From the NCBI GenBank assembly GCA_001794025.1, contig MGJA01000010.1, positions 26,288-71,334 on the forward strand: a stretch of 45,047 nt of DNA. The letters run 5' to 3'. Positions 3,746 to 18,721 of this stretch are shown in pieces. Below the pieces are notes generated by a model. The model was given only the letters and a program-made list of their open reading frames with translations. It made no database searches and had not been told where the DNA came from. Each line of letters opens with the position of its first letter. The stretch's first letter is position 1. The stretch comes from Candidatus Yanofskybacteria bacterium RIFCSPHIGHO2_01_FULL_41_21. Lineage in GTDB: Bacteria; Patescibacteriota; Minisyncoccia; 2-02-FULL-40-12; GWA2-44-9. The translations under genes and the position numbers were made by a program.

Positions 3746-6700
3746 TTACTTTTTAATTCCTAAGTAAATCTTTTTATCTGGTCCCAATAAGGATTCCTTA
3801 TACAGGTCGTAGTCGCCGTGTTTCTCTTTTTGTTCAAGCGATTTTAAAACCGTATCTTTTTTAATTTCTTCGGACCATTCGGTGATGGCGGAAATTATTT
3901 CTTTGTCTTCACTATACCAATCAACCATGACAGAATCATCCATCTGGTATTTGGCTTCTTTGCGCATATCTTGAATTTGACGCATCAGTTCTCGCGCATA
4001 ACCTTCGCGAGTTAATTCCGGCGTAAGTTCCCATTCAAAATCCATTTTCGGTAAACTCTCGTCAGGTTTTATGTATTTTATTTTTTTAACATTTAACTCT
4101 TCCCTTATTAAATCTTCCAGATTCCCAAATTCTTCGGTAGATTTAAATATAGAAAGAGGTTGACGAACCTTAATTTGTTTATCCTTTCTCAATTTAAGGC
4201 CAACGGCTATGGCTTCTCTCGCTAAATTCATCCTTAATTCTAATTTATCATCCACATATTTCCTATGAAATTTCGGCCAATCAGTTAAATGAACGGATTC
4301 GGGTTCATTCATTGAAAATTGTAAATTGGTAACTGATAATTGTCGATTGCTTTGCAATCGGTGGTACATATCTTCCGCCATAAAAGGTGTAAATGGAGCA
4401 AGGAGTTTAGATACTTCTATTAATACATTTCTCAATAATGGCAATGCTTCTTTTCGACGACGCGAACGGCGCAACCACCAATTAGATAAATCATCAGTTA
4501 AAAATTGATCAATGGCTCGGCCTGCCGAAGCGACATCATATTTATCCAAATTATCGGTCACGGAAGAAATTGTCCGATGTAGACGAGACATCAGCCATTT
4601 GTCTAATAAGGTAAAAGTCAAAAGCCCTAAGTCATAAGTATCAGAATTATTACTTTTTGCTTCTTCCTTTTTACTTTCTGCGTAGAGTTCATAAAAACGA
4701 ATACAGTTTTGAAGTGTGAAGAAAAAACCTTTCAATTTATCTTCAATCTCCCGAGGGATTACGGCTTTACTTTCCCCAGCCGCAACAGTGGACATAAAAT
4801 ACCAACGAATAACATCCGTACCGTATTTATCCATCAGTTCCATCACGGGCACAAAGTTACCTTTTGATTTAGACATTTTCTGGCCTTTCTCATCTAGGGT
4901 GTGTCCAAGAACTAAAACATTTTTATAAGGAGCACCCCGACCAAGCAAAGTTGAAATACCTAAAAGTGTCCAGAACCAACCACGGGTCTGGTCAACGGCT
5001 TCCACAATAAAATCGGCCGGAAATTGTTTTTTAAAAACATCTTTATTTTCAAACGGATAATGCCATTGAGCAAAGGGCATCGCGCCGGAATCAAACCAGA
5101 CATCAATGAGGTCGGGAATCTTTCTCATTTTTGACTTACACTTTGGACATTTAATGACGACGTCATCAATAAATGGCCGGTGTAAATCCAATTCGCCGTA
5201 TTCATTGCGCGGAATTTTGCGCCATTCCAGTTTACGAATTTCCGCAAGATTAGGAGCAAAATACGGGAAGACATCGGGATTTTTCAATTCGTCTCCGGAA
5301 TATCCATGAGCAATGGCCTGAAAGAAATACATCGGCTGACCATGAGTAACTATCAAAATTTTCTTGTTGCGGTGCTTTGATTCCATATCTTTCATAAAAT
5401 CAGTCACTCGTGTCCTTATTGATTCCGCGCTTTCGGTTCCTTCCGCATACTGCATGGTTCCGGTATCCGATTTACCCTCAAATTCAAGAAGGTATTCCTT
5501 CTCAACTAATCTTTCATCTGTTTCGACTTTATGGTGCAAAACCTGACCCGCTATTTCCGCGGTCTCCTTAGTTCTAAAAAATGGTGAGGCATAAATCGCA
5601 TCAATGCCATCTAGTTTTAAAAGTTCCAATGAACGCTCCACACCCTCTCGACCTTCATCTGTAAGGTGGTAGGTGTCTAAACTAAGTTGTGAATTGACAA
5701 TTGGTTTATCACTACTTTCATTACGAGTCGTCGCTCCATGACGCATTATGTAATAAGTATTTTTAGAACCGAGAGACAGTTTCTCCAGTTCTTTAATAGA
5801 GCCAATGGCGGTTTTGTGGTCACACTGACCGCACTCCCAAATTGGGAGTGGTGTCCCCCAATATCTTTCACGGGATAGTGTCCAGTCCCTTCCTTCTCGC
5901 AACCATCCGCCAAATCGTCCATCTTTAATATGTTCAGGAACCCAATTGACGGTTGCATTATTGGCGAGCAATTCTTTGTTAAGCGCAGATGTTCGTATAA
6001 ACCAAGACGTTTTGGCGTAATACAACAAAGGCGTATTACAACGCCAACAGAACGGATAGTCGTGCTCATAGTCCTCAATTTTTAAAAGTTGATTTCTTTC
6101 CTGAAGTTTTTCAAGAATTAAATCTTCAACGGCCTTGTTCTTTTTTCCGTTCTCAATAATAGCTTTTCCGCCGAGTCCGTCACCCAGAGAATCAATAAAC
6201 TTCCCCTGTTCGGTAACAGTATGAATTTTTGGTAAGTTTAATTTTGTACCAAGAATATAGTCATCTTCACCATACATCACCGCCGTATGAACCACGCCCG
6301 TTCCGTCTGTTGTAGAAACAAAATCTGCTGGATAGACCTTATATGATGTATCGGATTTCAGTTCCGGCACATCAAACAATGGTTCATATTCTAAACCAAC
6401 CAGTTCACTGCCTTTGTAGTTCTTGGCCATTAGCGAATAGCCATTAGCCGACCCAAATACTTTTTCCACCAAATCCTTCGCTAGGATTAATTTTTCTCCA
6501 TCAAGTTCAACGGTCGCGTAATCAATTTCGGGTCCCACCGCTAAAGCAACATTGCCCGGTAACGTCCACGGGGTAGTCGTCCATGCAAGAATATACACCG
6601 GCGAATTTCCAATTTCCAATTTCCAATTTCCAATTTTGGAATGCGGACCTATAACTTTAAATTTAAGGTAGACGGACCTCTCCGTCGTCAGTTTATATCC

Positions 6701-7402: not shown

Positions 7403-7674
7403 TACATATCCTCTTTACTATACCTTATTTTGATTAAAATTCAACTTGATTTTATGTAAAAAGAAGCCCTTAATACTCTCGAGAGTAGGCTACTGTATTT
7501 CGAATCAAGGTCCGGAATCGCCGAAATCCCAAATTCCTAATCCTGCCAGAATTGTGAAGATCAAGGTCTTTGCAAGCGTGCGGATAAATTTGTGACACTC
7601 CTTATCTGTCTTTAATGCGGATGTTTAGCTGCCGCAACAAAAACCGTAGCCAAAGAAGAAGCCAGATAATAAAT

Positions 7675-7795
7675 GACGCGGTATGACTCCGACAACGTGC
7701 CGTACCTGTACCTCAACGACGACGAACCGGCGCTGAACGCGAACTGGAACGACAATGCCAATCCGAAGTGGGGTGCCCCGTCCTTCGGTAGTGTC
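7675..7795 (+). repeat. DGR template repeat (TR)
   Basis: 121 bp, rich in AAC/GAC/TAC codons; aligns gaplessly to VR (revcomp of 9350-9470) with about 23 of 24 mismatches at TR adenines. Confidence 0.95.
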
Positions 7796-7797
7796 CA

Positions 7798-7834
7798 TAA
7801 ACTTAAAAACGGCTTCATGCCGTTTTTAAGTTTA
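7798..7834. terminator. Intrinsic, bidirectional terminator-like hairpin directly after the TR
   Basis: Perfect IR TAAACTTAAAAACGGC-TTCAT-GCCGTTTTTAAGTTTA. Confidence 0.8.
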
Positions 7835-8186
7835 GTGATTTCATCCAGCCACCAAGTTGTTTGCCAATATCTTGAATTTTAGATTCAAGAGAAAGATATT
7901 TTTTGTTATCAATTATCCTTAGTTCTCTAGCTGAACGTAGTAGAAACTTTAATACTTCAAATTTATTATTGGCGACAATAAGAATTGGCAATCTCTCATC
8001 TTTTGAAACCGCGACTGCCCCATAAATTTGCTCTATAAAATCCAACAAGTAATCTTCACAGCGTTTACCCAAAAGATACTGATCCTGTTTGGGGAACATT
8101 TTTAAGTAACCATAAAACTCTTTGTATAAATCGGCGGTCTTTTGGACTATTGGCGCTTCTTGGTCAATTTGCTGTATATTGTTCAT
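7815..8186 (-). CDS. avd: DGR accessory protein Avd (four-helix-bundle family)
   Basis: 'PIVQKTADLYKEFYGYLKMFPKQDQYLLGKRCEDYLLDFIEQIY...LPILIVANNKFEVLKFLLRSARELRIIDNKKYLSLESKIQDIGKQLGGWMKSLN' matches the Avd/four-helix-bundle pattern; next to TR and RT. Confidence 0.88.
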   Translation of the reverse strand: MNNIQQIDQEAPIVQKTADLYKEFYGYLKMFPKQDQYLLGKRCEDYLLDFIEQIYGAVAVSKDERLPILIVANNKFEVLKFLLRSARELRIIDNKKYLSLESKIQDIGKQLGGWMKSLNLKTA

Positions 8187-8189
8187 GTT

Positions 8190-9238
8190 ATGAAAATTAA
8201 TTTATTTGAAAAAACTATTTCCATGGAGAGCTTACTGGAAGCTTGGGATAAATTCAAGGCCGGCAAGAGACGAAGAACCGACGTTCAAATATTTGAGAAA
8301 AGGCTTGAAGATAACCTTTTTAAACTACACGGGGAACTCAGTAGTAAAACTTACCGTCATGGTCCGTACGAAAAATTCTATATTCGCGATCCAAAAGTTC
8401 GGCTCATACACAAGTCCAGTGTCAGAGATCGAGTTGTTGACCATACTATTTTCAAAACCCTAAACGAAATCTTTGAACCCACATTTATTAACGAATCTTA
8501 CTCGTCCAGAATTGGTAAAGGCACCCATCGAGGTATTAAAAGTTTAAAAGAATATCTTATAGAGACACAAAAAGTGTATGGCAAATGTTTTGTCTTAAAA
8601 TGTGACGTTAAAAAGTTTTTCCATTCAATCAATCACAATATTTTAATTTATATCATTCAAAGAAAAGTTACCGATCTAAACATGATCTGGCTCATCAAAC
8701 TACTACTGAAAAGCTTCCCGATTCGGGCGCAATTCGAGAGAGAGAGAGAGAGAGTAAAGCGTGCCCTATCGGTAATTTAACCTCTCAACTATTTGCTAAC
8801 ATATATTTGAACGAGCTTGATCAATACATAAAAAGAGAATTGCATGTAAAAAATTACATCCGTTACACTGATGATTTTATTGTCGTCCACCATAACAGAG
8901 AGTTTCTAGCTCAATTCATAACAACTATCAGAGTTTTTCTTCACGTAGAGCTAGGGCTGAAATTACACCCGAACAAAGTTGGCATCCGTAAGTATCGCCA
9001 AGGCATAGACTTTTTGGGCTATGTCGCTCTGCCTCGGGCCACGGTTTTACGGACAAAAACTAAAAATCGAATCCTGCGAAAAATCAAAGAAAGATTACTG
9101 CAGTTAAAAGAAGGCAAAATTACAGAAGAAAAATTTATGCAAACACTAAATTCTTATTTGGGAGTTTTAAGTCATGCCAACAGCCACAAATTACGATCAG
9201 AGATTATGGATTATATTTGGAAAAATTTGAATGAGTGA
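8190..9238 (+). pseudogene. DGR reverse transcriptase, frame disrupted at a (GA)9 microsatellite
   Basis: N-part 8190-8780 'MKINLFEKTISMESLLEAWDKFKAGKRRRTDVQIFEKRLEDNLFKLHGELSSKTYRHGPYEKFYIRDPKVRLIHKSSVRDRVVDHTIF'; C-part in another frame 'CPIGNLTSQLFANIYLNELDQYIKRELHVKNYIRYTDDFIVV...GIDFLGY'. Motif order is continuous across the frameshift. Confidence 0.92.
8736..8754. repeat. (GA)9G dinucleotide microsatellite inside RT coding sequence
   Basis: aattc-GAGAGAGAGAGAGAGAGAG-taaagc; loss of one GA joins the RT frames. Confidence 0.95.
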
Positions 9239-9256
9239 GTTTATTAAAATTAAATG

Positions 9257-9284
9257 CCCCCGAGTGCGCACGCGCACTCGGGGG
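9257..9284. terminator. 12-bp GC-rich hairpin with tetraloop between RT and VR (bidirectional terminator and/or DGR cis hairpin)
   Basis: CCCCCGAGTGCG-CACG-CGCACTCGGGGG, perfect stem. Confidence 0.75.
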
Positions 9285-9337
9285 ATAAAACCTCAACCCC
9301 CAACCATCAACAACCAATCAGGTCAAAAGGTCAAGGA

Positions 9338-9982
9338 TCAACCTTCAATGACACTCCCGAAGGACGGGGCACCCCACCCCGGAAAGGCACCGTCGCTCCA
9401 GTCCGCGAGCAGCGCCGGCTCGCCGCCGCCGAGGCACAGGCACGGCACGCCGCCGGAGACAAACCGCGACCGGACGAGATCCATATAGTGGTGGTTCAGC
9501 ACCTCGCTGAACACCATCAAGTGGATGTACCCCGCCCACAACCCGTAGCCGAACCGACCTGCCGACTCGATATTGGACTGCGCGACTGACGGCTTGGTGT
9601 TGAGACGCTGACGCCCATCTTCGACGCCGACGAGCATCCGCGGAACGGTGACGAGCGGGTCGAGGTCGCTCAGCGCCGAGACGGTCAAGAAGTTCTGTCC
9701 CATCTTGCCATTGAGCTGAATCCTGGCCATGTACTCGTTCCAGTCCATCTCACTGACCGGCCGCGGCTGGGGCGGCACGAGCAGGAACGGCGTGCCATCG
9801 GCGGGAAGCCGGTCGGCGAACCGGTCGAACATGTCGGCTGTCGCCAGTTTGGCGTCAGCGAGACGTGCCCGCGAGATTTCGAAAACCTCGACGGGTGTCA
9901 GCTGACGAAGTGGCGGAGCGAACAGCGCGCCGATGTCGTCAGACGAGAAGGCCTTGCGGGTTGTCGCGGTCTGCGTGGTCAT
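9338..9982 (-). CDS. DGR target protein with C-terminal variable region (possibly DUF5701-like)
   Basis: 214 aa; C-term 'RFVSGGVPCLCLGGGEPALLADWSDGAFPGWGAPSFGSVIEG' is encoded by the VR; SD-like AGAAAGGTG upstream; GC content clearly above flanks. Confidence 0.88.
   Translation of the reverse strand: MTTQTATTRKAFSSDDIGALFAPPLRQLTPVEVFEISRARLADAKLATADMFDRFADRLPADGTPFLLVPPQPRPVSEMDWNEYMARIQLNGKMGQNFLTVSALSDLDPLVTVPRMLVGVEDGRQRLNTKPSVAQSNIESAGRFGYGLWAGYIHLMVFSEVLNHHYMDLVRSRFVSGGVPCLCLGGGEPALLADWSDGAFPGWGAPSFGSVIEG
9350..9470 (-). repeat. DGR variable repeat (VR)
   Basis: 121 bp aligned to TR; AAC to GGC/CTC/GAC/AGC, AAT to GGT/TTT, TAC to TGC, GAC to GGC/GTC, AAG to GGG. Confidence 0.95.

Positions 9983-17590: not shown

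Positions 17591-18721
<1,131 letters not shown>

Follow-up and report, generated by a model that had tools for sequence, protein, structure and literature searches.

Diversity-generating retroelements (DGRs) of the kind carried by Bordetella phage BPP-1 comprise an RT with the motif IGNLTSQ, the protein Avd, and a TR and a VR that differ at TR adenines, the VR lying at the 3' end of the target gene. DGRs are already known from the Patescibacteria (CPR), as clade 2 of Roux et al. (2021; PMC8144416). That study did not settle whether cellular DGR targets turn over more slowly because RT activity is controlled or because of selection; repeat control is absent from its account, and its main text mentions neither frameshift nor homopolymer. 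In DiGReF, RT frameshifts are recorded as inactivation (PMC3521204). A second kind of system relevant here is the simple-sequence-repeat (SSR) contingency locus of the Moxon type, as in Neisseria and Campylobacter, in which poly-G or short tandem repeats of a hypermutable type, with units that are not multiples of three and lengths out of step with phylogeny, stand at the 5' ends of open reading frames or inside them. A search of the open-access literature, with preprints and most subscription papers outside its scope, returned no report that links DGRs to phase variation, contingency loci, frameshift or homopolymers. Repeat-driven phase variation of a DGR would apparently be new, and prior notice in preprints or subscription papers is possible.

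Here we describe a DGR in a 45,047-nucleotide stretch of DNA (the window) from a Yanofskybacteria genome (Table 1). Judging from comparisons of its sequence with those of its relatives, we consider it about 80% probable that the activity of this cassette is under SSR, that is contingency-locus, control. The locus has the BPP-1-type features listed above but departs from that type in that avd is divergent from RT, avd and the target lie on the minus strand with TR and RT on the plus strand, and RT is interrupted by a microsatellite. With the CPR DGRs of clade 2 it shares the host group, a cellular setting and a target without a recognisable domain, the clade being assigned from the host.

Table 1. 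Features of the DGR cassette and its surroundings (positions within the window)
Feature	Position	Strand	Evidence
Weak match to Rfam RF03028 RT-7 RNA, upstream of TR	7545..7607	+	E 3e-4 in 451 bases, below gathering score
TR, 121 nt	7675..7795	+	Ungapped alignment to VR
16-bp perfect hairpin, directly after TR, overlapping the avd 3' end	7798..7834		
avd, 123 aa, intact, own ATG, divergent from RT	7815..8186	-	Pfam bAvd E 3e-19
RT gene in two frames	8190..9238	+	RVT_1 in both halves, in different reading frames
(GA)9 microsatellite, point of the RT frame break, proposed phase-variation tract	8736..8753	+	
13-bp perfect GC-rich hairpin between convergent RT and target, 65 nt past VR	9257..9284		
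Target gene, 214 aa, C-terminal VR	9338..9982	-	ORF; homologues with the same C-terminus
VR, the 3' end of the target gene	9350..9470	-	Ungapped alignment to TR

TR and VR differ at 24 positions, 23 of them TR adenines (hypergeometric P 6.8e-19). Among the 28 adenines of TR, 16 are changed to G, 6 to T and 1 to C; the sole other mismatch is a T to G at 7789, near the 3' end, so that 1 of the 93 non-adenine positions differs. The differences alter 18 codons and 16 amino acids. These figures bear out the first-pass annotation, which had read from the letters a gapless 121-bp pair with about 24 mismatches, about 23 at adenines, a single T-to-G exception near the 3' end and about 16 changed amino acids, and had proposed looking for an excess of non-adenine substitutions and for further VRs. 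The first search gave the 1 in 93 just mentioned; in the second, TR was matched by exactly one VR, that in Table 1, and no other was present in the whole 704-kb assembly. An AlphaFold2 model of the target protein (pLDDT 85.9) placed C-type lectin (CLec) folds first in Foldseek, although not significantly so (top match E 0.66; TM of the CLec folds at most 0.46). The GC content of the target gene (64%) and TR (60%) stands apart from that of RT (36%), avd (34%) and the window (42%), a composition that makes both look foreign next to the cassette's own genes.

The adjacent genes present a mixed picture. The product of avd scored 77.2 bits against NCBIfam DivGenRetAVD, for which the cut-off is 80. 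The N-terminal frame of RT begins with an ATG at 8190 and stays open to 8780, and the C-terminal part, ending at 9238, lies in another frame and contains both hallmarks of a DGR RT, PIGNLTSQ and YTDD. The break falls at (GA)9, the only (GA)6 or longer tract in the 704-kb genome, which an alignment of RTs places in a length-variable loop ahead of PIGNLTSQ. RT is disrupted at the repeat only, and both halves remain conserved. Because the RT open reading frame is broken there, the assembled allele lacks a full-length RT by ordinary translation; it was therefore only in part correct to call the cassette a complete DGR with adjacent avd and RT, its adenine-specific TR/VR pair and its avd standing, its RT not. 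The broken RT weakens the claim that the allele is active, not the DGR identity of the locus. From the sequence, (GA)8 or (GA)11 would restore the frame. We rejected the possibility of a split RT made of two subunits: the 3' half has its first listed start at 8807, past PIGNLTSQ, so that the second subunit would lack the motif.

The layout and details of the locus had been thought to merit study; what gives it interest is the repeat together with its counterparts in about 100 related cassettes, rather than the layout alone. We designate as type C those cassettes with a (GA)n-type tract inside RT before PIGNLTSQ. Pattern searches, the source of all our genome-wide repeat counts, found 22 (GA)6 or longer tracts in 97 related genomes, at least 8 of them at DGR avd/RT genes. 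When 387 genomes of the class were searched for (GA)6 a short way ahead of the RT motif, 6 genomes matched, and none matched the reversed control pattern; a scan of viral contigs for the type-C pattern also found none. With one further genome (G088), the tract occupies the same RT site in seven species. Six alleles are out of frame ((GA)9, three (GA)8, (GA)7 and (AG)8), five with one offset and one with the other, and the seventh, a (GA)6, is in frame. The in-frame (GA)6 locus is collinear with one of the out-of-frame (GA)8 loci (genomes G224 and G085) over 2.7 kb, including the target gene, at about 74% DNA identity.

A second site for repeats is the junction between avd and RT. In two more DGRs of this genome, on contigs C7 and C11, poly-G lies between head-to-head avd and RT genes: G11 at C7, with avd out of frame, and G8 with a run of N after it at C11. 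These junctions account for two of only four places in the genome with poly-G of 8 or more. We pooled RT relatives in 97 genomes with 80 loci from named assemblies, removing duplicates; nearly all the sequences are metagenome assemblies. In most of these related DGRs avd and RT diverge from overlapping 5' ends, and in 93 loci a tract lies in the overlap. The tracts are of diverse kinds (G8-14, (GA)n, (CT)10, (GT)8-10, (AG)16 and (TGGC)6), with a unit of 1 nt in 83, 2 nt in nine and 4 nt in one, and never of 3 or 6 nt. In all, 867 kb of studied loci contain 120 non-A/T repeats, and 93 of these repeats are those at the junctions. Among the named assemblies are Yanofsky-, Moran-, Nomura-, Zambryski-, Doudna-, Levy-, Komeili- and Staskawiczbacteria, and some DGR contigs of the window's family are identical to Yanofskybacteria records (L080/L161, L082/L184, L056/L192). 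A junction tract is missing from 23 of 76 divergent-avd loci of named genomes, mostly in the window's own RT clade. Unlike the window, the phage DGRs that we fetched (BIP-1 and 13 others) carry no comparable repeat, with junction tracts in 0 of 14, and 62 viral DGRs with avd on the RT strand had no junction tract and a single repeat, near the RT 3' end.

The avd reading frame passes through the junction tract and, in 84 of 89 analysable loci, reaches an ATG beyond it in exactly one of the three phases. In 44 loci (type A), a start of RT's own follows the tract within 24 nt, so that the tract would switch avd alone. In 43 others (type B), RT has no such start; 32 of these have an RT ATG within 90 nt beyond the tract, in all 32 cases in the same phase as that of avd (21 of 21 where only one phase offers an ATG, and 10 of 10), although these counts are not of independent events, the loci being related and gathered by similarity to this group's RTs. 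Two type-B loci have only a non-ATG start and nine have no RT start at all; for one of the nine (L041) the tract was placed wrongly, and the locus is of type A. In 72 of 84 loci an RT CAT (His) codon, read in register on the opposite strand, supplies the avd ATG, and in 31 of 32 the RT ATG shares its register with the codons of avd. Given this shared register, one repeat length opens both genes.

By the avd phase, 17 of the 84 alleles are ON and 67 OFF, the latter divided 24 and 43 between the other two phases. The ON share is less than the one in three of pure phase drift, which counts against the phase-variation reading; the OFF excess, more than two in three, fits a mutator that is mostly silent, and assembly bias or recoding could contribute to it. 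Internal or non-ATG starts could also give some Avd from OFF alleles. Recoding might do more than contribute: were ribosomal frameshifting or transcriptional slippage to yield some full-length product from every allele, the repeats would tune dose rather than act as switches. Repeats can cause slippage, and a single out-of-frame phase is common to the 43 avd alleles, as a single offset is to five of the six out-of-frame type-C RTs. All three phases are nonetheless represented both at avd and at the type-C RTs, in-frame alleles included, the repeats vary in sequence (G, GA, CT, GT, TGGC), and phase does not follow the RT tree (see below). We regard pure dose tuning as unlikely; leaky recoding may operate on top of switching.

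We compared character changes on a quickly built FastTree tree of 141 RTs with those in shuffles. Tract presence changed 15 times (40.9 in shuffles) and type A or B 19 times (29.5), so few changes that the architecture is evidently inherited. Phase (33 changes against 34.9; P 0.23), ON/OFF state (17 against 15.7) and poly-G length (40 against 42.5; P 0.18) do not follow the RT tree. Among the loci compared, no conspecific ones differing in repeat length were found, and there were no near-identical pairs apart from duplicates. As at SSR contingency loci, then, a frame-shifting repeat lies in or at the start of a coding region and is enriched relative to the genome and to homologues elsewhere, and its length and ON/OFF state are labile while its presence is conserved, as judged from the tree and the collinear (GA)6/(GA)8 pair. 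In contrast to those loci, the genes predicted to be switched are those of the mutator itself, and one tract at type-B loci serves two divergent, overlapping genes.

Chance expansion of the repeat could instead have inactivated RT in a cassette that is on its way out. The window RT is indeed broken, RT frameshifts alongside an intact TR and VR have been recorded as inactivation (PMC3521204), and a relative, L094 in genome G088, has several in-frame stops. In the window, however, the break is confined to the repeat, with conserved RT sequence on both sides and the single non-adenine TR/VR difference noted above, and the repeat recurs at the same RT site in seven species, once in frame. Moreover, TR/VR pairs with adenine-specific differences occur in 50 of 75 first-set loci, in ON and OFF loci alike, and the OFF alleles are therefore not old wrecks. 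Decay strikes us as a rather improbable account of the window. As for L094, its related RT contains four in-frame stops (one TGA and three TAA), and its sequence is that of a DGR RT in decay, whereas the frame breaks elsewhere are single and lie in a repeat.

It is also very improbable that the junction tract acts through its length or structure, as a leader, promoter or RNA element, rather than through the reading frame. For the 44 RTs that start within 24 nt after it the tract is a leader, but no one unit sequence is conserved, only a single phase leads avd to its ATG, avd and RT of type B share their phase, and the type-C tract lies inside the RT coding region. Finally, sequencing or assembly error, with a true repeat one unit shorter or two longer and a constitutively intact RT, is hardly credible: short repeats are error-prone in metagenome assemblies and four junction tracts adjoin N gaps, but miscounting cannot create repeats at the same two places in some 100 loci, the majority of alleles being out of frame.

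We thus favor control of the window cassette by its repeat, and the comparative data suggest that in much of the Patescibacteria DGRs are probably phase-variable mutators, in which a repeat in the avd/RT overlap, or inside either gene, decides whether hypermutation can occur and a shared-frame antisense arrangement lets one repeat switch both subunits. Replication slippage would alter the repeat number at a high rate, and cells would flip between DGR-ON and DGR-OFF through repeat length. In the ON state, RT and Avd would be made, TR RNA would be copied with random bases at A, and VR would be rewritten by mutagenic retrohoming; in the OFF state, the current VR variant would be retained. The assembled window allele, from which avd but not a full-length RT could be made, would be OFF. 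If this is correct, phase variation and mutagenic retrohoming, both classic mechanisms of diversity, are joined in one device, and a heritable, stochastic mutator switch would explain bursts of diversification after which a good variant is kept. The switch state can be read from sequence, in that metagenomic reads allow tract length to be compared with VR diversity. Meanwhile, pipelines that expect intact RT and avd open reading frames will either score such cassettes as defective or overlook them.

Several minor features of these loci deserve mention. The hairpin that follows TR is possibly an avd terminator or part of the DGR RNA, and that between RT and the target may be a DGR target-site hairpin or a plain bidirectional terminator. 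As for an IMH/IMH* difference with a downstream hairpin, the window has the single T/G mismatch close to the 3' end and, 65 nt past VR, the 13-bp hairpin, possibly a terminator. The weak RT-7 match upstream of TR is a possible remnant of a DGR leader RNA; at curated cut-offs, 18 related loci yielded only tmRNA and tRNA as RNA families. Relatives in the window's RT clade share a conserved leader of greater length ahead of TR (CCAGAG-hairpin-AGCGTGC plus other blocks). Members of that clade without an avd/RT tract carry (GATG)n, 6-13 units, just past the RT 3' end (RT-oriented positions: L076 4032, L080 4099, L084 4036, L089 4136; also L167), possibly another switch.

Pilin-like and secreted-protein genes are the usual company of contingency loci. 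We note (GA)n/(TC)n at the 5' ends of such genes in related genomes (L126 1244, L127 1983, L131 2002, L132 1999, L133 2002), some of the tracts encoding LSLSLS or RERERE; from their sequence, these genes are candidates for other phase-variable surface genes of Patescibacteria. Elsewhere in the window, short repeats occur inside two essential genes: ileS contains (AATTTCC)4 at about 6604-6631, which codes for a GNWKLEIGN-like peptide, and in the tsaD open reading frame (17591-18721) a short repeat codes for KTGNWKLETGN in TsaD.
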